Shown here: piece after piece, positions 3,617 through 17,253 of the stretch
Numbering within the stretch: the first letter of the stretch is position 1
How the letters are laid out: every line of letters starts with the position of its first letter
Assembly: GCA_002841275.1 (NCBI GenBank)
Contig: PHET01000015.1
Span: 8,834 to 65,232, forward strand
Direction: 5' to 3'
From: Actinobacteria bacterium HGW-Actinobacteria-7
GTDB taxonomy: Bacteria; Actinomycetota; Coriobacteriia; Anaerosomatales; PHET01
DNA length: 56,399 nt
Position numbers and translations under genes: made by a program
The notes under the pieces: generated by a model
Database searches by the model: none
The model's input: only the letters and a program-made list of their open reading frames with translations
Told to the model about the DNA's origin: nothing

Positions 3617-4900
3617 TCACTCGGTCTGGGACAGCCCCAGACCGTTCGCGATGTTCTCGGCAAGTGCTTCGATTCGCTCGGCCGAGAAGTTCCTCGTCTC
3701 CATGACCATGTGCTTGCAGTCGTAGAGACTCCAGTCGCGCGTGAGTATGGTGAGTCCGAGTTCCTCTGCGCGCTCGTAGAACTTCGTGCCGGGAAACGGC
3801 GTGGTGTACGAGATCAGAAGCTTGCCGCCCGCCTCGCGGATATCTGCCATGAAGGCTGCGGTCTGCGCCAGCGTCTCCTCGGTGTCATCCGGAAACGGAA
3901 TCATGAACGAACACGCAACGGCGATACCTGCATCGACGGCGGACCGCACCGCGTCAAGCGCATCTTCCTTCTGGATCCCCTTGACCGAGTCGAGTATGTC
4001 CTGGGCGCCGGACTCGATGCCGAACTGGATACCGGTGCACCCGGTCTGGGCCATCCGATGCAGCATCGCATCGTCGACACGATCGACCCGCGTGGCACAG
4101 CCCCACGTGAAGCCGCCGCGCTCCTCGATCGCATCCATCAGCTCTGCGAGCCATGTCCGATCCAAGGTGAGAATGTCGTCGACGAAGAACACGTGCTGGG
4201 CACCGTAGTCGCGTATGACATCAGCGACCTCGTCCAACACGTCGGCAACCGGCCTCATGCGCCGGAGCCCGCCCCAAAGGTGGGACGCCGAGCAGAACGG
4301 GCAGCGATACGGGCAACCGCCGCGAGCGGCGAGAACATTGTGCGCGTCTTCGTAGAACTCGAGCGAGAGAAGTTGACGCGCCGGACGGCCGATGTCGGCC
4401 GCGTCCAACGGCTCCCGCGGCTCGTTGAGCACCGCGGTGCCATCCCCTTTGTGGCCCAGCCCGGGGATACGGACGAGAGCAGCAGAGTCCGCGCCGTTCT
4501 CGAGCGCGCGAACAAGCTGAGCGGCCGTCTGCTCGCCCTCTCCGATCGCGACGTAGTCAACCGCAGGCTCGGCGAGAACCTCAAGCGGCAGAATACTGGT
4601 GTGCGGCCCCCCGAAGAGCACCGGGATCGAAGGATCGTGCTCCTTGACCAGCGCAGCGATGGCAAGTGCGTTGGGATAGGTCTCCGTGTGTGAGGAGATG
4701 CCGACAAGGTCAGGGCGGGCCCTGTTCAGAGTCGCCGTGATTCGAAGGGGATTCAAACCGGTGAGGTTGAGGTCGACGAGGTCGACCTCGTGGCCCTGGT
4801 CGATCAGGAACTGAGCTACATACGCCAACCCGAGCGGCGGCGAGAGGTGCGCGTGCGGGCTTCGAATCGAAACCGGTGCCTGGAACAGCAACACTCTCAT
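3617..4900 (-). CDS. B12-binding-domain radical SAM protein
   Basis: A 427-residue protein with the architecture of BchE/P-methylase-type enzymes. Residues about 1-140 form a cobalamin-binding Rossmann fold (RVLLFQAP, then LVGISSHTETYPNALAIA and PVLFGGPH). The radical SAM core follows, with the cluster motif CPYRCPFCS (Cys-x3-Cys-x2-Cys) near residue 195. Further core features are DDILTLDRTW and GIQFGIESG. The family uses SAM cleavage, often with methylcobalamin, for methylation or cyclisation; the substrate is not readable here. The cobalamin-binding D-x-H-x-x-G signature is not present in canonical form, which is common in this group. The start is set at ATG 4900, 9 nt after GGAGG; a GTG two codons upstream is only 3 nt from it. 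The gene follows the ydh terminator, so it is probably a separate transcript. Confidence 0.88.
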   Translation of the reverse strand: MRVLLFQAPVSIRSPHAHLSPPLGLAYVAQFLIDQGHEVDLVDLNLTGLNPLRITATLNRARPDLVGISSHTETYPNALAIAALVKEHDPSIPVLFGGPHTSILPLEVLAEPAVDYVAIGEGEQTAAQLVRALENGADSAALVRIPGLGHKGDGTAVLNEPREPLDAADIGRPARQLLSLEFYEDAHNVLAARGGCPYRCPFCSASHLWGGLRRMRPVADVLDEVADVIRDYGAQHVFFVDDILTLDRTWLAELMDAIEERGGFTWGCATRVDRVDDAMLHRMAQTGCTGIQFGIESGAQDILDSVKGIQKEDALDAVRSAVDAGIAVACSFMIPFPDDTEETLAQTAAFMADIREAGGKLLISYTTPFPGTKFYERAEELGLTILTRDWSLYDCKHMVMETRNFSAERIEALAENIANGLGLSQTE

Positions 4901-5405: not shown

Positions 5406-7505
5406 TTATGCACCCAGCTTTCCGGCCTTTTCGAGCTCGTCGGCCACATTGGCCAGGTCGAGCTTCTCAAGCGTTTCGCGAGTCGGCCATCCGGACTTGA
5501 CGTCCCAGCCTTCCAGCTTGAAGAACAGGGTCTTCCAGTCCTCGACCCTCTGGCGGTCGAGCACGCGTCCGGCCACGCTCTTGTATGACCACTCGTTGTC
5601 CTCGAACACCGGCATGGTGTAGGGAGCTTCGTACGTGGTCGTACCGGGCTGCGCGCCAGTGGTGTAGCAGTACTCAGAGAACTTCTCGATATCGCGGTGG
5701 CGACCCTGGAGAGCCCAGACCGCACGGTCGAGGTTCCAGATCCTGCGTCCTATCTCCATACCCTGCTCAAAGGTCATGTCTCCGCCGGTGACGGCGTTCA
5801 TGAACTTGTTCTCGCCAACGCTGGTCATGCCCTCGTTGTCAGGACCGTAAGGGTTCACCATGTCGGCCCATGCCCAGTCACAGAACAACATCGACTGCTT
5901 GTAGAACCTCGTGTAGTGGCGGTGCCACGCGACGGTCTTGGCCATGGCCTCAGAGTAGATGCCCTCGTCGCTGTAGTTGATCATCATCGGGTCGTTGAAC
6001 GGTGCCGTCTTCTTGGCGAAGATCTCGGAGAGACGTTTCGCACTCACGACAGGCTCAACACCAAAGAGACCGTTGATGGTCGGCGTCCAGTACACGTGCC
6101 AGTTGAAGTCGTGCTCGTTGATATCGCGCTCGCCGAGCAGCGATCCGTAGCCCCACTCGACCTCTGTACGAGCGTCATAGTGGTGAGGAAGACCCCACTC
6201 CTGAAGCGGCAGGATTCCGCTCTTGGTGTCCATCTCGAGACGACCCCACGCAAGCGCTGCCTGGGCGACGCCCTTGCAGAGTTCCTTGCCGATGTCGGTC
6301 TGGGTGACGATGCTGTTGATGAACGCCTCGGCCCATTCGCCCGAGCCGAACCTGTCGAACGGCAGGTTCGAGTCGATCTTCTTGCCCTTGCCCATGATTC
6401 CCTTGTTGTACAGCTGCTCGATCCACAGCGTGGCGGCTTCCACAGCGAAGGCGTTGACGCCGGCGAGCTGGATCGCGTCAGCTGCTCGGGGAGACGCATC
6501 CGTGACATGCCCGTTCGCCTTGACGTCATGATGGTCGTACCAGAAGAAGTCGACGCATTGAGACTCGTTGCCCTTGCCTGTGTCTGTTCTGCCGCGGCAG
6601 TTGCGGATACAGCCAACGCACCCCTGCGGGCGCGACTTGGTGCCTGCGGGATTGTCCTGGATCGTCGAGAGTGGCTTGCCCGGCGTGCTGGCGAAAGAAG
6701 TCAGACCGGTGTAGGAGGCGGGATCGTCGTGGTGCCCGCCAAATGCGTAGCCGTTGGACCACATACGAGCAGCCATCAGCGCGTTGGCGTCGGCGATGTC
6801 GACGCCGCCGGTGCCTACGACACTGATCGCCTTGAGGTTCTTCGAGGCGAAGACCCCGCCGAATCCGCCTTGACCGGCGCCGTTACCGGCGTCGTGGACC
6901 AGAGCGGCCATCGGCCCGAACTTCTCGGCGTTGGGGCCTGCAGTGATCACTGCAGGGTGCTGGGTGGTGCGCCCCGAGTCGCGCGAGACTCCCATGTTGA
7001 TCCAGCCGCTTTCCTTCTTGCTGGGCTCCACGCGCGCCCATATCTCCTCTTGCGTCTCACGGGTGTTCAGGCCCCACAGATCCGTGGCGTCCTGAAGCTT
7101 CACTTCACCGTTGATGATGTTGAGCCACACCTGCTTGGGCGACTTGCCCACGAGCACGATACCGTCCCAGCCGGCGAACTTGAGCTGAGTCGAGAAGCGA
7201 CCGCCGAAGTTCGAACGAGTGAACCAGCCAATCGGGTAGGCCTGGATGCCGATGCCCTGAACCTCGGTGCGACCGGCGACCGACGGTGCTAGCGTGCCGG
7301 AGAGCGGCGAGGTCATGAGCGTGACGACGTTGCCGGGATCGGTGCCCTTGATAGTCTTGTCGGTGCACAGGTCGAAGAAGATCGCAGACCCGATACCGTG
7401 TCCGCCGCCCCACGACTTGTACTTCTCGGTCTCAATCTCTTCGAACTTCCCGGTGGTCAGATCCACTTTGAGGATCTTCCCCGAGTATCCCTTGCTACTT
7501 GCCAT
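5406..7505 (-). CDS. ydhV: aldehyde ferredoxin oxidoreductase-family enzyme, YdhV type
   Basis: A 699-residue pterin-dependent oxidoreductase. The N-terminus (GYSGKILKVDLTTGK) and the domain-2 Fe-S motif C296-x2-C299-x3-C303 with a distal C542 (LFCDWAW) are those of the AOR family. Total length and C-terminal signature (PTRETLEKL, then ANVADELE) fit E. coli YdhV (about 700 residues) better than classical AOR (about 600). YdhV is reported to bind a bis-molybdopterin Mo cofactor; AORs use W. The metal and substrate here are unknown. There is no signal peptide. The gene follows the ydhX-like gene by about 50 nt and has GGAGG 6 nt before the ATG. Together with the ydhU-like gene this suggests a membrane-linked oxidoreductase exchanging electrons with the quinone pool. 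The family is certain; the YdhV subgroup is likely. Confidence 0.92.
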   Translation of the reverse strand: MASSKGYSGKILKVDLTTGKFEEIETEKYKSWGGGHGIGSAIFFDLCTDKTIKGTDPGNVVTLMTSPLSGTLAPSVAGRTEVQGIGIQAYPIGWFTRSNFGGRFSTQLKFAGWDGIVLVGKSPKQVWLNIINGEVKLQDATDLWGLNTRETQEEIWARVEPSKKESGWINMGVSRDSGRTTQHPAVITAGPNAEKFGPMAALVHDAGNGAGQGGFGGVFASKNLKAISVVGTGGVDIADANALMAARMWSNGYAFGGHHDDPASYTGLTSFASTPGKPLSTIQDNPAGTKSRPQGCVGCIRNCRGRTDTGKGNESQCVDFFWYDHHDVKANGHVTDASPRAADAIQLAGVNAFAVEAATLWIEQLYNKGIMGKGKKIDSNLPFDRFGSGEWAEAFINSIVTQTDIGKELCKGVAQAALAWGRLEMDTKSGILPLQEWGLPHHYDARTEVEWGYGSLLGERDINEHDFNWHVYWTPTINGLFGVEPVVSAKRLSEIFAKKTAPFNDPMMINYSDEGIYSEAMAKTVAWHRHYTRFYKQSMLFCDWAWADMVNPYGPDNEGMTSVGENKFMNAVTGGDMTFEQGMEIGRRIWNLDRAVWALQGRHRDIEKFSEYCYTTGAQPGTTTYEAPYTMPVFEDNEWSYKSVAGRVLDRQRVEDWKTLFFKLEGWDVKSGWPTRETLEKLDLANVADELEKAGKLGA

Positions 7506-7555: not shown

Positions 7556-8296
7556 CTAGCCGAGATGACCGCCGGACTGCGGCGCTCCACCAAAGCCCAG
7601 GCTGTCCCATACCGTGCCGGTGCGCAGGTCGGTCTCGTAGCCGTCCTCGCTCTGAACGGGGATCTCCTTGGTGAACTTGATGGCCCCCATGGGGCACACC
7701 TCTTCACAAGCCCGCTTACCGTCGGGGCCGCCGACCTCGTCCCAGAACTTCGCGCCCTCGCACAGATCGCACTTCTCGGCGTGCTTCTCTTCGAAGTTCC
7801 ACAGAGCGCGCGAGGGGGTGAAGGGACACGCGTTGACGCACTTCTCGCAACCGATGCACTTATCCTCGTCGACCGTTCGCACACCGGTCTTGGGGTCCGC
7901 GTGCATGGCACCCGTGGGGCATGCAGCGACGCATGCGGGGTACGGGCACTGGCGGCACTGGGCCATCTGGATGTCGTTGGGGAACTTGCCCCACGGATCC
8001 TGCGTGATCTGGATCCTGGACAGCGACATGTTCGTCTCACCGTGATGCGTGAGCGAGCACGCCATCATGCAGCTCGTGCAACCGGCGCACTTCTTGGTAT
8101 CCACCAGCAGATAGCCACCCGACGCGGGAACAGCGAACACCTTGTCCGGCAGCGCGATGCTCGAGACGAACATCCCGCCCAGGACGGCGCCGATTCCGAC
8201 GCCACCGATGGATGTGACGAACTCGCGTCGCGAGAAGGTCTTGCCCTTGTCGGGCTCGGACGACCTGGGATTCAAAGTAGTGCCCTTGTCCTTCAT
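7556..8296 (-). CDS. ydhX: Tat-exported 4x[4Fe-4S] ferredoxin subunit, YdhX-like
   Basis: A 246-residue electron-transfer subunit of the DmsB/HybA/NrfC type. The start at MKDKGTT has AAAGGA 8 nt upstream; reading further up is not needed. Residues 21-26 form a twin-arginine motif (FSRREF), followed by a hydrophobic Gly/Ala/Val stretch to about residue 50, a Tat signal. Four cysteine groups follow: CAGCTSCMMAC, CRQCPYPACVAACP, CIGCEKCVNACP, and CDLC with CEEVCP. These 16 Cys fit four [4Fe-4S] clusters forming a wire between catalytic subunit and cytochrome b. It lies between the ydhU-like and ydhV-like genes. The oddity is that the export signal is on this subunit while the catalytic partner has none. 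Confidence 0.92.
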   Translation of the reverse strand: MKDKGTTLNPRSSEPDKGKTFSRREFVTSIGGVGIGAVLGGMFVSSIALPDKVFAVPASGGYLLVDTKKCAGCTSCMMACSLTHHGETNMSLSRIQITQDPWGKFPNDIQMAQCRQCPYPACVAACPTGAMHADPKTGVRTVDEDKCIGCEKCVNACPFTPSRALWNFEEKHAEKCDLCEGAKFWDEVGGPDGKRACEEVCPMGAIKFTKEIPVQSEDGYETDLRTGTVWDSLGFGGAPQSGGHLG

Positions 8297-8333
8297 CGTG
8301 AGATTCCTTTCGAAGTTCGAATCAAGCCGGTCA

Positions 8334-9143
8334 TCAGGCAACGCGCTTCGGGGCGATGGGTGAATCGTCGTTCGCTCCGTCGTGACCCTGCTCGTCGGCC
8401 TCGCGGAGTTCCGCGAGCCAACCAGCATGCTCGTGCTTCGCGTAGTCGAGACTCACGTGTCCGGTGAACATGGACCTGAGAATCGGCCAGCTGGACGGCA
8501 GAATCGCCGCGAAGAAGATGTGCGGCAGGATGAAAGCGAGCATGACCACCGTTGCGACATCGTGCGTAGGCGTGATGATCGACATCAGACCAGCAGGCAC
8601 GTCGAGCGAGTGCGCGGCTACCTTCACGAAGCCGGTCACGATGATAGTGATCGTCGTGGCCGCAGCCATGAGGTACGCCATCTTCTCGGACTCGAAGTAC
8701 TTGCGCTCCGGCGGCATCGTGAACTTCTTGAAGCCAAGGAGCAGTCCGTAGTGACGCTTCGTGAACTCCACGGCATCACTCGTGGGAAGGTGCTCCCGCA
8801 GTCGCTTGAGCGCGAGCATGGTGTTTGCGCCGTAGTAGAAGGTTCCAAAGAGGAATACGACCACCGCGACGAAATGGATGTCTAGCGCAATCCAGAGCGG
8901 CCTTCCGCTGCCGACCAGCGCAGGAACGAACAGGACACCAAGGGCGATCCCCGAGACAAGCAGGACTGCCGTGGCGATCCCGTGTGTCCAATGCTCGACG
9001 ATAGCGGCCGTGTCGTGGCGCAGAACGCGATTGCCCTCGATGCGCGGGTCCTGGCGCTTCGTGACCCCCGCTGCCAGGATTCCTGCGAACGGCGCTAGCC
9101 ACACGAGCCATGTCAACGAGTTGAACCACAGAGTAGCTGACAC
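8334..9143 (-). CDS. ydhU: di-haem cytochrome b membrane subunit, YdhU/FdnI-like
   Basis: A 269-residue membrane protein starting at GTG (AAGG about 7 nt upstream). About five hydrophobic segments are visible: residues 5-25, 52-75, 86-108, 158-182 and 195-220. Histidines suited to b-haem ligation lie in or at the ends of helices: EHWTHG, LDIHFVAV, TPTHDV and LPHIFF, the pattern of formate dehydrogenase gamma/cytochrome b561 subunits. The family anchors periplasmic oxidoreductases and passes electrons to or from menaquinone. The C-terminal ~40 residues are polar, probably cytoplasmic. It is first in its operon and divergent from the Fic-like gene across a 431-bp AT-rich gap. Confidence 0.9.
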   Translation of the reverse strand: MSATLWFNSLTWLVWLAPFAGILAAGVTKRQDPRIEGNRVLRHDTAAIVEHWTHGIATAVLLVSGIALGVLFVPALVGSGRPLWIALDIHFVAVVVFLFGTFYYGANTMLALKRLREHLPTSDAVEFTKRHYGLLLGFKKFTMPPERKYFESEKMAYLMAAATTITIIVTGFVKVAAHSLDVPAGLMSIITPTHDVATVVMLAFILPHIFFAAILPSSWPILRSMFTGHVSLDYAKHEHAGWLAELREADEQGHDGANDDSPIAPKRVA

Positions 9144-9574
9144 GCCTTAACCCCTTTCCTTCCAGAGAACCAGCGACTCCGCAATTCGCGCAACGGTGAA
9201 ACTGATACTCCACAACTGGACTGCCGGGTCCTTTGGTGTCGTGACTACAGGCAATTCCACGATGTGTCACGACCATTTCGTACTAATCATACGCCTTCTA
9301 GTACTTAGCATCGGCCAAACACGTCGGTTCTCGGACTTGATGCGAGTCCTACAGGGGCACTGACCTGCGTACTACTCGGTTCTCAACAGGTTTCATAATA
9401 TTGACGCAGACGCTGTAATCGCCAATCTACGTACCTGTTCGTATACTTATTACCGTTTTTTGCATTGTTGGTATATCATCGCGCAATGACACGTTTGCAC
9501 CCGTGTTATCGTTGTATTGAGTCTGACTACTGGCCTAGTCGCCAGATGAACGGCACTTCGATCTGGAGCACGCC
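9144..9574. promoter_or_regulatory. divergent regulatory region between ydh-type operon and Fic-like gene
   Basis: This 431-bp stretch holds no gene I can support and is clearly more AT-rich than its surroundings, especially 9380-9520. An inverted repeat GTCGTGAC (9238-9245) and GTCACGAC (9266-9273), with a 20-nt spacer, lies about 95 nt before the ydhU start and could be an operator or leader hairpin. A possible promoter for the rightward gene uses TATATC near 9472 with a weak -35 (TTACCG) 16 nt upstream. These are visual calls; none is strong. Confidence 0.4.
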
Positions 9575-10885
9575 ATGAACAATTGGATTGATGAACCAAC
9601 AGCGCTTCGCCTCATTGAGGCGTTGGACGAAGGCCGCCTTGACTCGCTCTTCCAGGCCGCCCACGTCGACTACTCCGAGCGCGACGGCTTCTCGGGCACG
9701 AGCCTGACGCTCGGTCTGCCGCGCGACGTGGTTACGCACCTTCTGGGATCCGTGCGTCGCGCTCAGGGGCTCACGATTCTCGCCGGCGCGTGGGGCGACT
9801 ACTCTGGCTGGATAACCGTATCGGCCGAACTCGTCGAGTTGCTGCACGAAGTCGATGTCAGGGCGAACTTCGACTACCGCACCGCAACACAGCTGCCCGA
9901 CGACGTGATCAGGCATCTCAAGAACCGCATCCTCATAGAAGAGGTACTCCCGCTCGGCCTCACCAAGGGGGATCTCACGCCTACAAACGAGAACGAGTTC
10001 ACCCAGGCCAAGAACGCCGCACGACGCATGCTGCTGCATGGCTCCAAGCCCTGCACCGACTACGAGCGCTGGGTGCTCCGGTTCTTCGACCTGATGCAGC
10101 GCCTGCCGGAGTTGGCTGCAGAGCCCCTCACTCTGGAAAGACTGCGGGAACTGCACTCCTTCCTGGTTCTGGATGAGGCGCAGGGCGGCGTCTTTCGCAC
10201 CGAGCCGATCTTCAACCCCAACGTGGGCCTCTCGGCTGACGGCGAAGGCGCACTCCCCGAGAGGATTGCCAGTGAGATGAACGCCATCGCGACGTATGGC
10301 ACCGGCTTTCAGAAGCCGTTCGTGCATCCGCTGATCAAGACGATCATCTACTTCTACTGGATCAGGCGCGTACAGCCATTCGTAGTCGCCAACGGTCTGT
10401 TCGCACGGCTCATAGCCCACATCTACGAGTACCAGCAGGGATACCGTTGCCTTCCGTGCACTCCCCTGACGCGCAACGCCAGCTCAGAATGGGCTGCTGC
10501 TCCCCCTGATGCCGACAAGTCGAAGTTCGACGCAACGGCGTTCGTCATCAAACGCCTCGGACTCTTCCTGGACGCTTACACGGAGGCGGAGAGCGAGATC
10601 CAGAACGCAACACGCCGGCACGAGGCACTGAATGCGAGATTCGGATCTCTGGACATCAACCACCGGCAGGCCCGGATTCTGGACAAGGCACTCGGCGCGC
10701 CAACGACCGTGTTCACGATCAAGCGCCATGCCCGATCATGGAGCCTCGCCTACGAAACCGCTCGACAGGACTTCTTGCAGTTGGTGGCGACCGGCTACCT
10801 CGAGCAGGCGAAGCGCGGGCGGGTGTTCGAATTCCGTCTCGCCCGTGACGCCGAGAAGAGACTGCTCCCGAGGCTACCCGCCTGA
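9575..10885 (+). CDS. degenerate Fic-fold protein with C-terminal winged helix, putative regulator
   Basis: A 436-residue protein. Residues about 160-290 follow a Fic domain: LRELHSFLV, a segment HPLIKTIIYFYW (normally HPhh...HY.F), and at 267-278 QPFVVANGLFAR where active Fic proteins have HPFx(D/E)GNGRxxR. The catalytic His is Gln, the acidic residue is Val and the first Arg is Leu, so AMP transfer is not expected. Residues about 355-436 look like a helix-turn-helix/winged helix ending in a wing (GYLEQAKRGRVFEFRL), as in Fic/DUF4172-type regulators. The N-terminal ~100 residues are of no type I recognise. Its divergent position next to the ydh-type operon suggests it controls that operon; this is inference. 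Confidence 0.8.
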   Translation: MNNWIDEPTALRLIEALDEGRLDSLFQAAHVDYSERDGFSGTSLTLGLPRDVVTHLLGSVRRAQGLTILAGAWGDYSGWITVSAELVELLHEVDVRANFDYRTATQLPDDVIRHLKNRILIEEVLPLGLTKGDLTPTNENEFTQAKNAARRMLLHGSKPCTDYERWVLRFFDLMQRLPELAAEPLTLERLRELHSFLVLDEAQGGVFRTEPIFNPNVGLSADGEGALPERIASEMNAIATYGTGFQKPFVHPLIKTIIYFYWIRRVQPFVVANGLFARLIAHIYEYQQGYRCLPCTPLTRNASSEWAAAPPDADKSKFDATAFVIKRLGLFLDAYTEAESEIQNATRRHEALNARFGSLDINHRQARILDKALGAPTTVFTIKRHARSWSLAYETARQDFLQLVATGYLEQAKRGRVFEFRLARDAEKRLLPRLPA

Positions 10886-11905: not shown

Positions 11906-12775
11906 CTAATACTCCCCAGGAAGCGCTTTGAGCTGGGCCGCAGTGAAGACGGGACCGTCCTTGCAGACGTAGACCCTACCCACGTTGCAGCGCCCGCACT
12001 TTCCCACGCCGCACTTCATCCGGTTCTCGAGCGTGGTGTAGATGACGTCGTCGGAGAATCCCAGCCGGGCCAACGCCGGCAAAGTGAGCTTGATGACGAT
12101 CGGCGGGCCACAGATCACGGCCACGGAGTTCTCTGCGCTGGGGGCCGCCTGTTCGACGACCGGCGTCACGTAGCCCACCTGGCCGGTCCACTCGGGGGTC
12201 TCACCGTGTGGGTCGACCGTGGTGACAAGCCGTACGTCACTGCGCGCAGCCCACTCGGCCAACTCCCGCTTGTACACGAGGTCGCCCACCGAACGCGCGC
12301 CGTAGATGATGGTCACGTCGCCAAACTCGTCTCGGCGATCAAGCACGTTCCAGATGACCGCACGAACCGGGGCAAGCCCGATGCCACCGGCGATGAAGAC
12401 GATGTTCTTGCCCACCCACTCGTCAACGGGGAAGTAGTTGCCGTAAGGTCCGCGAAACCCGATCGTGTCGCCCACGTTGGCCTCGCGCAGCGCGCTCGTG
12501 ACCTTGCCGGCCGCCTTGAAACTGCACTCGATATAGCCCTGTCGGGTGGGAGGACTCGCAATGCAGAAGGTGCTCTCGCCCCAGCCGAACATCGAGTACT
12601 CGCCAAACTGCCCTACTTTGAAGTTGAACGACTCGGCCACCGCAGGATCCTTGAACTGCAGCCGAAGGGTGCGAGTATCAGACGTCTCGTCGATGATCTC
12701 GCTTATCGTCACGAGATGCGGCACATAGAGGTGCGCCGCCTGGGTGTCTGCTGCGCAGGCGATGGCGTCGTTCAC
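11906..12775 (-). CDS. flxA: FlxA: FAD/NAD-binding and [2Fe-2S] electron-transfer subunit
   Basis: A 289-residue ferredoxin-reductase-type subunit. The start is the GTG at 12775, which overlaps the flxB stop (GTGA). The N-terminal half is the FAD-binding barrel (FKVGQFGEYSMFGWGES, FRGPYGNYF). The middle has the NAD-binding Rossmann motif GGIGLAPVRAVI and ICGPPIVIKL. The end has a four-Cys cluster site CGVGKCGRCNVG plus VCKDGP, as in dihydroorotate dehydrogenase electron-transfer and sulfide/hydrogenase gamma subunits. In FlxABCD-HdrABC complexes this subunit oxidises or reduces NAD(H). It is last of the seven coupled genes. Confidence 0.88.
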   Translation of the reverse strand: MNDAIACAADTQAAHLYVPHLVTISEIIDETSDTRTLRLQFKDPAVAESFNFKVGQFGEYSMFGWGESTFCIASPPTRQGYIECSFKAAGKVTSALREANVGDTIGFRGPYGNYFPVDEWVGKNIVFIAGGIGLAPVRAVIWNVLDRRDEFGDVTIIYGARSVGDLVYKRELAEWAARSDVRLVTTVDPHGETPEWTGQVGYVTPVVEQAAPSAENSVAVICGPPIVIKLTLPALARLGFSDDVIYTTLENRMKCGVGKCGRCNVGRVYVCKDGPVFTAAQLKALPGEY

Positions 12776-13836
12776 AATGATCCCTCTTCGCTCAGTGCCA
12801 GCTGGTCGATTCCCTGCAGGATCTCGATGAGGTCCTGGCCCGCCGGGCAGACACGCACGCATCGGCCACAACCGGTGCACAGCACGTCGCCGAACTTGCT
12901 CGGGTAGATGTAGAACTTATGGCTGATGCGCTGCCGGTGGCGCGAGTTCTGATCGTCGCGCGGGTTGTGCCCACTGGCGTGCAACGTGAACTTCTTGGCC
13001 TGACACGTGTCCCAGCTGCGGCGGCGGACGCCCGTGCCCACACCCGTCTGCTCGTCAGTGATATCGAAGCAGTGGCACGTGGGGCAGACCGATGCACACG
13101 CGCCGCACCCGTTGCAGCGCGGGCCCAAGGTGGGCCAGAAGTCATCGTCGAAGTGGCCGTCGATCCAATGCTCGATGCGCTTGGTGTCGATGTTCAGGTT
13201 GGCTTCGACACGCGCACGCGCCTCGGCGCGGAACGCCTCGCCAGCGGCAAGGGCCGTATCCGGTGCCGCCGTGAAGAACCGCTCATACTCGCCCAGAAAA
13301 GCCTCGCCCTTCTCGGAAACCGGCTCGAAGAGGTAGCCTCCCTCGACGGCCACCAGAAGCGCGTCGGTCCCACGCGTCGCATCCGGACCCAGACCGACGG
13401 CGCTACAGAAGCAGCTCTCGTCGACGCCCGGGCAGGCGATCGAGATGATAGTCGACGCGTCACGCCTGCCGTTCCACAGATCATCGTGGTAGTCCCAGTT
13501 CATGACCGAGTCGACCACGTTCAGAGCAGCCACATCGCACGGCCGGGCGCCAAGCACGACCTGCGCCGCAAAGCAGTTGGGCGCCGGCGTGAGTTCTACA
13601 TCGCCGCCGTTCTGACGCCAACTGAGCAGCGGCTCGCTGGGCGGAAGGAAGTGGCCCTTAAGCGACGGCATCGGCAGTGCATCGTTGAATGTCGCCTGGG
13701 CGAGCGTCTCGATCTCGGAGTAGTTCGCAGTGCCGTCCGCGGCACTCACCGGTGCGACCACGCGCGTGCCCGCCGCGACAAGTTCTGCGACGAGCACGGA
13801 CAGCTGTTCGGCGGAGATGTAGGTGGCGGCGCTCAT
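12772..13836 (-). CDS. flxB: FlxB: Fe-S subunit of the Flox complex
   Basis: A 354-residue protein starting at ATG 13836, which overlaps the flxC stop (ATGA). It belongs to the hydrogenase/sulfur-reductase beta (HydB/AsrA-like) family. The first ~220 residues have the family pattern (FLPPSEPLL, LGARPCDVAALNVVD, ISIACPGVDESCFC). Two ferredoxin motifs follow: CNGCGACASVCPTCHCFDI near residue 230 and CTGCGRCVRVCPAG near 315, giving at least two [4Fe-4S] clusters. It should relay electrons between FlxA and FlxC/HdrA. An upstream ATG in the same frame would overlap flxC deeply and is rejected. Confidence 0.88.
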   Translation of the reverse strand: MSAATYISAEQLSVLVAELVAAGTRVVAPVSAADGTANYSEIETLAQATFNDALPMPSLKGHFLPPSEPLLSWRQNGGDVELTPAPNCFAAQVVLGARPCDVAALNVVDSVMNWDYHDDLWNGRRDASTIISIACPGVDESCFCSAVGLGPDATRGTDALLVAVEGGYLFEPVSEKGEAFLGEYERFFTAAPDTALAAGEAFRAEARARVEANLNIDTKRIEHWIDGHFDDDFWPTLGPRCNGCGACASVCPTCHCFDITDEQTGVGTGVRRRSWDTCQAKKFTLHASGHNPRDDQNSRHRQRISHKFYIYPSKFGDVLCTGCGRCVRVCPAGQDLIEILQGIDQLALSEEGSL

Positions 13837-14705
13837 AGGATGAAATCCTCGCGGTCGTCGTCGCGGAAGGTACCGATGGGCGAAGCGGTTGCCGGATCGT
13901 CGCTGACCTCGAAGTCGAAGCTCTCCGCGACGATCTGCTGGAGCTTGCGGTTGATGAGCGTGATGGGGATGCCCACGGGGCAGGCGCGTTCGCACTCGCC
14001 GCATCCGACACAGCGGCCAGCCAGGTGCAGCGCCCGAGTCATGTGCCACGACAGGTTGCCGCGCGCATGGGGTGAACGCTCGATCCACTGCGGAACGGTC
14101 TTGTCGGCCACACACTGGTCGCAGACGCAGAGCGGACACGCCTGGCGGCAGGCGTAGCAGCGTACGCACTTCTCCATCTGGGACGCCCAGAACTCGAAGC
14201 GCTCGTCGGGCGTCATGGCGTCGAGTTCAGCTACGCGCTCGTCGATCGAGGTGACCTGCGGCGGCTCGGGCTGCTCCTCGCCGATGATGAAGTCGGCCAG
14301 ATGCGGTTCGCGCACATCGCAGCCTGCGCAGCGCGGCGCCACCGTCTCGAGTGTGAGCGTCGCGTCGCCTGCGGGATCCTTGACCACACCCCCACAGCGC
14401 ACGCCGATAAGCACGACCTCGTCGCGCTCGATCTGGGCCTCGCGCAACAGGGCGGCGACGGCCTTGGTGTCGCAGCCCTTCACGACAATTGCGGGCTTGC
14501 CCAGCTTGCGGACCTGCGTACGACGCGGGTCGAGATAGGTCGCGAGGTTGTGCACGCTACGGGTGTCGAAGACGAGCTTCTCGACATCCGAGGGGTCTGT
14601 GATCGTCACGGGACGCAGACCTCGGCGGCCCGCTTCCCACCCGATGACCACCTGCACGGTCCCCTCTTCAAGCAGCTTGCGGGCGAGGTCCTGGAGTTCG
14701 CTCAC
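13833..14705 (-). CDS. flxC: FlxC: ferredoxin-domain subunit of the Flox complex
   Basis: A 290-residue protein. The N-terminal part has conserved segments also seen in FrhB-like proteins (VVVKGCDTKAVAALL, VLIGVRCGGVV). The middle contains CVRCYACRQACPLCVCDQC and the C-terminal part CVGCGECERACPVGIP, two [4Fe-4S] sites, with a further CAGCDVREP segment near residue 130. It overlaps flxD by 4 nt upstream and flxB by 4 nt downstream. In the Flox complex of sulfate reducers the equivalent subunit is a ferredoxin-like relay. I assign it from the operon context plus domain pattern. Confidence 0.85.
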   Translation of the reverse strand: MSELQDLARKLLEEGTVQVVIGWEAGRRGLRPVTITDPSDVEKLVFDTRSVHNLATYLDPRRTQVRKLGKPAIVVKGCDTKAVAALLREAQIERDEVVLIGVRCGGVVKDPAGDATLTLETVAPRCAGCDVREPHLADFIIGEEQPEPPQVTSIDERVAELDAMTPDERFEFWASQMEKCVRCYACRQACPLCVCDQCVADKTVPQWIERSPHARGNLSWHMTRALHLAGRCVGCGECERACPVGIPITLINRKLQQIVAESFDFEVSDDPATASPIGTFRDDDREDFIL

Positions 14706-15232
14706 GATGCGTCACCAGCCTCGGCGACGACGGGAGCCACGACATCCGGCACATCCAGGGAGGTTCCGCTGGCGGCACCTGCAGCCTGGCGAAGCGCGAG
14801 ATCGTGATAGGCGTCGAACGGCCCCAGCTCCCGGATGCGCTCGACGGTCTCGTTGACCACATCGCGCCACTTGGCGCCCTCACCTGCGGATACCCAGGAG
14901 AAGGTGACCCGCCCGAGGTCCACGCCCATGAAGCCGAGCAGTTCTCGGAAGACGATGAAGCGGCGGCGCGCGTGGTAGTTGCCCGCCGTGTAGTGGCAGT
15001 CCGCCGGGTGACAGCCGCTGACGATCACGCCGTCAGCTCCGCGCTCGAACGCCTTGATGATGAACAGCGCATCGATCCGGCCGGTGCAGGGCAGGCGGAT
15101 GATCCGCACGTTGCTCGCCATATGCATGCGGCTCGTACCGGCCATGTCGGCGCCGGTGTACGTACACCAGTTGCAGACGAAGGCCGTGATACGCGGCTCG
15201 AAGTCGTTGATAGGTTCGGTCATCTCACTCAC
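14702..15232 (-). CDS. flxD: FlxD/MvhD-type [2Fe-2S] delta subunit
   Basis: A 176-residue protein of the MvhD/FlpD family that docks partner enzymes onto HdrA. The diagnostic features are all present: CNWCTYTGADMAG, the strand IRLPCTGRID, and SGCHPADCHYTAGNYHA, whose Cys residues bind the [2Fe-2S] cluster. The C-terminal ~25 residues are an Ala/Val-rich tail. Its start overlaps the hdrA stop (ATGA) and its stop overlaps the flxC start. In methanogens MvhD connects hydrogenase to HdrA; here it would connect the NAD(H) module. Confidence 0.92.
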   Translation of the reverse strand: MSEMTEPINDFEPRITAFVCNWCTYTGADMAGTSRMHMASNVRIIRLPCTGRIDALFIIKAFERGADGVIVSGCHPADCHYTAGNYHARRRFIVFRELLGFMGVDLGRVTFSWVSAGEGAKWRDVVNETVERIRELGPFDAYHDLALRQAAGAASGTSLDVPDVVAPVVAEAGDAS

Positions 15233-17253
15233 CAGGTCAGCAGTGCGTTGATTTCGGCGAATATCTGTTCATCGGTGAATCCTTGCAGCTCTACGCTCTT
15301 GCTGGGACACGTCGCGACGCAGGTGCCGCAGCCTTGGCAAACGCCGGGGAGCACGCGCGCCACATGACCGCACACCTCGTTCTCGCGGTTGCAGACGTCG
15401 ATGTGCTCGATGGCGCCGTACGGGCAGACCCGCTCGCAGTTGAAGCAGCCGATGCACGTGCGCTCGTTGACGACGGCGACGGTGGGCTCGCGCTCGAGTT
15501 CGTCTCCGCTGAACATGCCCAGCACCTTGCTGGCAGCGGCGCTCGCCGATGCGATGGAGTCGGGGATGTCGCTCGGGCTCATGCAGGCGCCCGCCACGAA
15601 CACGCCCGCCGTGGTCGTCTCTACCGGTCGCAGCTTGGGGTGCGCCGAGGAGATGAAGCCGTACTGGTCATAGGTGACGCTGAGCTTGCGCCCCAGGTTC
15701 TTGTTGCCCTTGTGCGGTCGCATGGCGGTACAGAGCACGACCATATCCGCGTCGAATATCGCGGTCTCACCGGCCAGCGTGTCGTAGCCCACGACCTTGA
15801 CCGTTTCTCCGTCGCGATACATTCGGCTGACGCGGCCCCGGATGTAGTTGGCACCGTCCTCTTCAATGGCGCGCCTGACGAACTCCTCATAGCCCTTGCC
15901 CGCCGAGCGGATGTCCATGTAGAAGACGGTCGCTTCTCCGTCATGCACCTTGTGGCGATAGAGCATCGTGTGCTTGGCCGCGTACATGCAACAGATCTTG
16001 GAGCAGTAGCTGATGCCCTTCTCGGGATCACGGCTACCGATGCACTGAAGGAAGACGATCTTCTTGGGCACCTTGCCATCGCTCGGGCGCACAATCTGGC
16101 CGCCGGTGGGTCCGCTCGCGCTCGCAAGACGTTCGAACTGCAGTCCCGAGATGACATCGGGGATCTCGCCGTAGTTGTACTCGGCGTAGCCCTTGAGCCC
16201 TTCGGGCTGCTCGCGTCCCACACTGTAGAGCTTGAAGCCGGTCGCGATGACGATCGCACCGACCTTCTCGTCGATGAGTGTGTCTTCCTGCTCGTAGTCG
16301 ATGGCGCTTCTGAGACAGGACTCCTTGCACTTGCCGCACAGGTCCTTCTCGCGACCCTTTGCGCGGCCCTTGAACAGCGTGCAGTTCTCACGGTCGAGCA
16401 CGGGAATGTTGGGCACGGCCTGCGGGAACGGCACGTAGATCGCACTTCGCATGCCCAACCCTGCGTCGAACTCGCTGGGAATCTTGCGGCTTGGGCACGC
16501 CGCCTGGCAATCCCCACAACCCGTGCACAGGTCCTCGTCGACACTGCGCGCCTTCTTGCGCACCGTGACATGGAAGTTGCCGATATAGCCCTCTACCGAT
16601 TCAACCTCACTGTAGCTGTGCAGCGTGATCCTGGGATGCTGGTAGACCTCGACCATTCTCGGGGTCAGGATGCACTGCGAACAGTCGAGCGTGGGAAACG
16701 TTTCGGACAGCTGACTCATGTGGCCACCGATGGACGGCTCCTTCTCGACGAGCACCACCTCGGCGCCGCCGTCGGCGATATCGAGCGCCGCTTGGATGCC
16801 TGCGATGCCACCGCCGATCACCAGAGCACGCTTAGTCACCGGGATATGGATCGTCTCGAGCGGGACGTTGTTCTTGACCTTTTCGACGATCGTGCCAACA
16901 ATCTCGATCGCCTTGGCGTCGGTCTCAGGTCCCGCCTCGTGCACCCATGAGCACTGCTCGCGAATGTTGGCCATCTCTACGACGAACGGGTTCAGCCCCG
17001 CCTGAGACGCAGCACGACGGAACGTCTTCTCGTGCATATGCGGTGAACAGGCCGCGACGACCACGCCCGTGAGGTCGTGCTCCTCGATCGCCTGCTTGAT
17101 GAGCGTCTGGCCGGGATCCGAGCACATGTACTTGTAGTCCTGGCTGACGACCACGCCGGGGTGGTCCTTGAGGGTCGCGCTGACCTTGGCACAGTCGACC
17201 GTGCGCGAGATGTTCTCTCCGCAGTGGCAGACGAATACACCGATACGAGCCAT
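15229..17253 (-). CDS. hdrA: HdrA: flavin-containing bifurcating subunit of heterodisulfide reductase
   Basis: A 674-residue flavoprotein and the expected site of electron bifurcation. The order is: an N-terminal domain with VCHCGENIS and YMCSDPGQTLI, then the FAD Rossmann motif GGGIAGIQAALDIADGG (about 145). Next come a segment with DCSQCILTPRM, an inserted ferredoxin motif CTGCGDCQAACPS (about 240), and QCIGSRDPEKGISYCSKICC, a strong HdrA signature. At the C-terminus are two 4Fe-4S motifs, CIGCFNCERVCP and CQGCGTCVATCPS. Length fits the ~650-residue methanogen/Desulfovibrio type. It starts just after the hdrB stop and overlaps flxD. Confidence 0.95.
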   Translation of the reverse strand: MARIGVFVCHCGENISRTVDCAKVSATLKDHPGVVVSQDYKYMCSDPGQTLIKQAIEEHDLTGVVVAACSPHMHEKTFRRAASQAGLNPFVVEMANIREQCSWVHEAGPETDAKAIEIVGTIVEKVKNNVPLETIHIPVTKRALVIGGGIAGIQAALDIADGGAEVVLVEKEPSIGGHMSQLSETFPTLDCSQCILTPRMVEVYQHPRITLHSYSEVESVEGYIGNFHVTVRKKARSVDEDLCTGCGDCQAACPSRKIPSEFDAGLGMRSAIYVPFPQAVPNIPVLDRENCTLFKGRAKGREKDLCGKCKESCLRSAIDYEQEDTLIDEKVGAIVIATGFKLYSVGREQPEGLKGYAEYNYGEIPDVISGLQFERLASASGPTGGQIVRPSDGKVPKKIVFLQCIGSRDPEKGISYCSKICCMYAAKHTMLYRHKVHDGEATVFYMDIRSAGKGYEEFVRRAIEEDGANYIRGRVSRMYRDGETVKVVGYDTLAGETAIFDADMVVLCTAMRPHKGNKNLGRKLSVTYDQYGFISSAHPKLRPVETTTAGVFVAGACMSPSDIPDSIASASAAASKVLGMFSGDELEREPTVAVVNERTCIGCFNCERVCPYGAIEHIDVCNRENEVCGHVARVLPGVCQGCGTCVATCPSKSVELQGFTDEQIFAEINALLTW

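Follow-up and report, generated by a model that had tools for sequence, protein, structure and literature searches.

A catalytically dead Fic-winged-helix protein as a probable regulator of anaerobic respiratory operons in Coriobacteriia

The locus and its Fic protein

We have analysed a stretch of 56,399 nucleotides (the window) from Actinobacteria bacterium HGW-Actinobacteria-7, in which the gene for a Fic-domain protein stands divergent from an operon for an enzyme of the aldehyde ferredoxin oxidoreductase (AOR) family (Table 1). The operon holds the genes by which a Class V WOR or YdhV operon is recognised, i.e. an AOR large subunit (AFOR_N/AFOR_C), a four-cluster Fe-S protein and a cytochrome b561. 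The 135-residue protein encoded directly after the AOR gene has no Pfam or NCBIfam match. Downstream of the Fic gene, on the reverse strand (11906-17253), lie what appear from their sequence to be flavoprotein, Fe-S and HdrA-like genes for electron transfer of the heterodisulfide-reductase type. All of the evidence presented here is computational.

Table 1. Features of the regulator gene and the divergent AOR operon, in window coordinates.
Feature	Position	Strand	Remarks
B12-binding radical SAM protein, last in the AOR operon	3617..4900	-	found at this position in further genomes too (cluster c7)
Small protein, 135 aa	4996..5403	-	conserved directly after the AOR gene in most such operons (cluster c4)
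Aldehyde ferredoxin oxidoreductase family enzyme, YdhV-like	5406..7505	-	AFOR_N/AFOR_C
Four-cluster ferredoxin-like Fe-S subunit, NrfC/YdhY-like	7556..8428	-	start possibly 8296
Cytochrome b561 / formate-dehydrogenase-gamma-like membrane subunit	8334..9143	-	start 9143 (GTG), or 9104 by the gene caller
Divergent intergenic region, regulator vs AOR operon	9144..9574	.	
Candidate operator TACTA-N13-TAGTA (TACTAATCATACGCCTTCTAGTA)	9281..9303	.	23 bp; palindrome search
Catalytically dead Fic-winged-helix protein, proposed regulator	9575..10885	+	436 aa
Degenerate Fic motif QPFVVANGLFAR	10373..10408	+	residues 267-278
C-terminal winged helix	10655..10846	+	about residues 361-424; recognition helix AYETARQDF

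The reading frame of the proposed regulator starts with ATG, preceded by the ribosome-binding sequence GGAG at 9564-9567. Residues 184-283 match the Pfam Fic family (PF02661) with 30.4 bits, where the curated cut-off is 24 bits. An AlphaFold2 model of the protein (pLDDT 84, pTM 0.82) was compared with known Fic structures by Foldseek, as the original prediction had suggested, and retrieved the crystal structures 8cil, 3zcn and 3eqx, each a Fic domain plus a winged helix. The model aligns with SoFic (3zec/3zcn) over 314-319 residues, up to model residue 423-424; the Z-scores of about 21 to SoFic and FICD and the Pfam match place the protein in the Fic/DOC domain superfamily (Fido fold). Because this alignment runs through residue 423, it also covers a C-terminal winged helix of the kind found in CccR-type Fic-wHTH transcription factors. 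Among 33 dead homologues, 12 of the 14 invariant residues fall in this winged helix.

Fic enzymes transfer AMP onto other proteins, and their reference active motif is HPFx(D/E)GNGRxxR. In QPFVVANGLFAR the histidine has become glutamine, the acidic residue and the next glycine have become Val-Ala, and the first arginine has become leucine, while Pro-Phe, Asn-Gly and the second arginine are still present. This is not the motif of an active AMP transferase, and the orthologues have suffered the same loss. The inhibitory helix (S/T)xxxE(G/N) that precedes the core of class II Fic proteins is gone as well, with the ASSQIE of canonical relatives aligning within LPLGLTK. A nearly invariant residue, Glu123, was considered as an inhibitory glutamate pairing with Arg278 and dropped, as the canonical inhibitory glutamate is found eight residues later, at Lys131. 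For the N-terminal DUF4172 domain of CccR-type proteins there was no Pfam match at an E-value of 1, nor any among the families of the 33 members, in profile searches that may miss this domain. Motif and model together indicate that catalysis is lost from the Fic domain, with the fold and the winged helix retained, much as originally predicted.

Spread of the motif loss and genomic neighbours

None of the four close orthologues, from other genomes and 65-73% identical, has the intact motif that the original prediction named as evidence against itself; all four carry the equally dead QPF(A/S/Q)VAN(G/A)LFAR. In 69 genomes of the order, many of them MAGs, the homologues form a graded series; gene calls and clustering with our own scripts yielded 37 homologues with a dead motif and 9 with an intact HPFxDGNGR. 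Across the class, a profile search over 398 genomes picked up members in 70, and the motif is broken in all 40 of the class-level proteins read outside the order. These belong largely to a single family (f19) and include the group of L117, whose model (pLDDT 86) matches SoFic too. In contrast, the best ten phylum-level matches outside the class have HPFxDGNGRTAR (nine) or HYFEDGNGRTAR (one), and we therefore regard the catalytic loss as a trait of a Coriobacteriia family, not of a single gene. NCBIfam has no model for this family. In the tree the dead proteins occupy a number of deep clades, placed ambiguously with respect to the canonical one, so that catalysis may have been lost once or a few times.

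In essentially all dead members the motif histidine is replaced, by Q, R, N, D, L or another residue, and the motif varies freely between dead clades while the winged helix stays conserved. This bears on whether the altered motif serves a different enzymatic activity, as in Doc and AnkX, two Fic-fold proteins with changed chemistry. The Pro-Phe, Asn-Gly and second arginine kept in the window's clade would suit such an activity, and toxicity persists in a Campylobacter Fic protein whose core motif is degenerate (PMC5651007). However, the Campylobacter protein retains its catalytic histidine, and with both the histidine and the constancy of the motif gone from the dead proteins we find a residual enzymatic role very unlikely.

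The upstream neighbour could be read for 33 dead homologues of the order, and 29 of these stand divergent to the cytochrome b gene that heads a cytochrome b-FeS-AOR operon, compared with 0 of 7 canonical homologues (Fisher about 2e-5, from almost identical counts). The divergent placement seen in the window is thus conserved across the order, and a family whose members adjoin other genes only, which would have spoken against the prediction, is not what we find. Every order genome with a close AOR homologue has a dead Fic gene (16/16), as do 4 of the 53 others. Put the other way, the AOR occurs in 16 of 20 dead-Fic genomes and in 0 of 49 genomes without dead Fic (p = 2.5e-12). The distances of regulator and AOR are also correlated (r = 0.77, p = 2e-4, n = 18, some being paralogues within a genome). 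In several MAGs the contig ends within the cytochrome b or Fe-S gene (L172:1, L171:1, and contig ends in L046, L047, L050 and L052), as if these genes were near-identical repeats of paralogous operons.

AOR operons are not the only neighbours. One dead Fic gene is divergent from a flavin reductase (L059), another from a formate dehydrogenase (L071), and some homologues stand beside unrelated genes (L055, L072). The formate dehydrogenase (L071:1831-4965) seems to be interrupted by an in-frame stop that splits it into two frames and may be a selenocysteine TGA. Class-level members from outside the order usually adjoin a TAT-exported FAD_binding_2 reductase, in most cases divergently; three members have an AOR operon on the same strand. 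Conversely, about nine AOR operons with readable context have no Fic gene of their own; one of these (L048:3081) keeps the operator of its clade in front. A separate dead-Fic clade (L132, L135-L142, L144-L146, L148, L150) is often found beside a class I/II aminotransferase, and here the palindrome TATCAAT-N9-ATTGATA overlaps a strong TTGATA-N16/17-TATAGT-like promoter that faces away from the dead Fic gene. An aminotransferase as the shared neighbour of the lowest-scoring clade and L045 was dropped, the match being to a generic aminotransferase only. The original proposal of an AOR-operon regulator is partly supported, by the conserved linkage and by a candidate operator within 9144-9574, but was too narrow in view of the flavin reductase, formate dehydrogenase and aminotransferase neighbours. 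The dead Fic-wHTH proteins are a broader Coriobacteriia family and not AOR-specific.

Palindromes upstream of dead-Fic genes

The intergenic sequence between regulator and operon is unalignable between orthologues. We scored every 5-mer inverted repeat with spacers of 0-20 in 11 intergenic regions of the window's clade. The top palindrome, TACTA-N13-TAGTA, is exact in five of the 11, where the maximum for any palindrome in 3000 dinucleotide shuffles was three; four further members have it with one mismatch and two (L043, L080) only with two, so that it is not universal even in this clade. A short palindrome conserved within sequence that cannot be aligned is likely to be meaningful. The copy in the window, about 270-295 bp upstream of the regulator start, is the sole exact one in its 2.53-Mb genome. 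The sole copies of G004, G015 and G017 are likewise within the Fic/AOR intergenic region, as is one of the two copies of G003, and copies distant from the dead-Fic/AOR locus occur in G009 (two) and G037 (one). We propose the palindrome as a candidate operator of the dead Fic protein; it could also be the site of another regulator. Control of the AOR operon by FNR was considered and set aside, given that 9144-9574 holds no FNR-like site.

Elsewhere among the dead-Fic clades, where the adjoining operon is for AOR, flavin reductase or formate dehydrogenase, the palindrome is TRTCAAT-N9-ATTGATA, which shares the 23-bp geometry and has TATCA arms in place of TACTA. In 80 loci centred on Fic genes (1.25 Mb), 32 of 37 such sites are upstream of Fic-family genes, and four of the remaining five precede a second AOR operon or a CxxCH lipoprotein. 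As these loci were chosen around Fic genes, ten whole genomes were scanned in addition. They contain nine exact copies, one each in nine genomes and none more than about 1 kb away from a dead-Fic gene: six directly upstream of it, and three some 0.9 kb downstream, before CxxCH lipoprotein genes. The reversed pattern, used as a control, has 0 copies in the same ten genomes. Sites before the lipoprotein gene (~177 aa; L048:11253, L058:10502, L053:7915) are in two cases divergent from a P-type ATPase, and the position of these sites makes the lipoprotein and ATPase genes possible further members of the regulon. In the small AOR clades C, D and E the count of exact 5-mers gave no shared palindrome above chance, and several of these clades have TRTCAAT-N9-ATTGATA copies with 1-2 mismatches.

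Since TGTCAA and TTGATA resemble -35 hexamers, the palindromes might instead be back-to-back -35 boxes of divergent promoters, or another regulator's sites. The dead Fic protein would then act otherwise, e.g. by binding and silencing an active Fic partner, and its own genome does encode an intact Fic protein (HPFRDGNGRTAR). That gene is, however, on another contig and unlinked to the dead one. The N9 spacing is fixed and the interior conserved, the inner arm has no adjacent -10 in most AOR and flavin-reductase cases, and the TACTA arms of the window's clade are unlike a -35 box. Moreover, the recognition-helix residue after the tyrosine (or its equivalent) is E or Q in proteins with TACTA-type operators and A, G or S in those with the TATCA type; we infer from this small sample that operator type follows the residue. 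Similar palindromes also precede the start of several canonical Fic-wHTH genes from outside the class (L154, L156, L159, L161, L162). Taken together, these points make promoter boxes or a foreign regulator improbable as an explanation. Long inverted repeats just upstream of intact Fic-wHTH genes outside the class (L162:433-455, L161, L157, L159:4122) suggest that these genes autoregulate, in analogy to CccR.

Proposed function and comparison with known systems

We consider it quite probable that the protein is a catalytically dead Fic-wHTH regulator of anaerobic respiratory operons, probably a repressor. A dimer would sit on the 23-bp palindrome via its two winged helices and would control the AOR operon; the regulator's own gene is probably a target too. 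Speculatively, a signal taken up by the relic Fic pocket or by the N-terminal domain may alter DNA binding; a ligand bearing a phosphate is conceivable, as the Asn-Gly and second arginine of the anion-binding loop are kept.

The sign of control is suggested by the sister clades, where the outer arm (TGTCAA, the reverse of TTGACA) often coincides with a -35 box directed at the target gene. A -10-like hexamer (at least 4 matches) is found 16-19 bases on from the outer arm in 63% of cases vs 12% in the background. This overlap favours repression, as does the characterised relative CccR, a repressor (PMC9755527). It would equally suit a class II activator, bound to the palindrome over the -35 region and switching on the AOR operon upon a ligand or redox signal. 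In the window we recognised no promoter directed at the AOR operon, as would be expected if the promoter were an activated one, and repression in the window itself consequently leans on the sister clades and on CccR. However, the -35 box of the sister clades is near consensus (TTGACA) and suits a promoter that needs repressing, so that repression appears the likelier sign and activation rather unlikely.

A bolder reading, offered tentatively and with some doubt, is of a one-component regulator lineage in Coriobacteriia. In this lineage the catalysis of a Fic-wHTH enzyme would have been killed and its relic nucleotide pocket kept as a signal receiver. Each duplicate would have taken charge of one operon for an anaerobic respiratory reductase, and the code between recognition helix and operator would be readable.

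Coriobacteriia, including gut relatives of Eggerthella, have many anaerobic respiratory reductases (Class V AOR, FAD reductases) with no assigned substrate. Dedicated regulators with identifiable operators offer a way to learn when each reductase is in use, and looking for whatever releases the regulator could become a route to substrate discovery. The family would also illustrate how an enzyme fold can take on a new role in transcription, with its active relatives still showing the ancestral way of binding DNA.

Earlier publications describe winged-helix Fic proteins, the binding of DNA by them and, in one instance, autorepression (PMC2686095, PMC10628234, PMC9755527). New here is the candidate operator, proposed from sequence comparison, for a dead-Fic family. 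The statement that no Fic-derived AOR regulator has been described agrees with a 2026 survey of AOR-type enzymes (PMC13328260), which names no regulator for Class V operons and uses neither the word Fic nor the word regulator; the idea of a Fic-wHTH regulator, on the other hand, is not new (CccR). Among open-access papers we found none on Fic proteins in Eggerthella or Coriobacteriia, dead Fic regulators included.

With E. coli ydhYVWXUT and the Class V tungsten- or molybdenum-containing oxidoreductases the window shares a YdhV-like AOR, a YdhY-like Fe-S protein and a membrane subunit, and Coriobacteria are among the Class V hosts in the 2026 survey (PMC13328260). AvrB, with a Fic-like fold (PMC2686095), has lost motif residues as the dead Fic protein has, but is an effector and not a DNA-binding regulator. 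SoFic (3eqx/3zcn) and Coxiella Fic2 (8cil) share the Fic fold and C-terminal winged helix with the dead Fic protein over ~315 residues; to our knowledge, DNA binding had not been shown for SoFic. Coxiella CbFic2 differs in having an intact HPFDDGNGRIGR motif and a TSAIEG inhibitory helix (PMC10628234), both lost in the dead Fic protein; CbFic2 is not known to have a specific target operon. The closest parallel is CccR of Yersinia pseudotuberculosis, a class II Fic protein with a C-terminal HTH that binds as a dimer to an inverted repeat near the -35/-10 elements and represses; its Fic domain is active, it is a T6SS effector and it autoregulates through AGATAATCAT-N26-ATGATAATCT (PMC9755527). 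The dead Fic protein resembles it in joining a Fic domain to a C-terminal HTH, and the palindrome by its gene may be a comparable operator; it differs in its dead domain, the shorter spacing of its candidate 23-bp site and a respiratory operon as proposed target.
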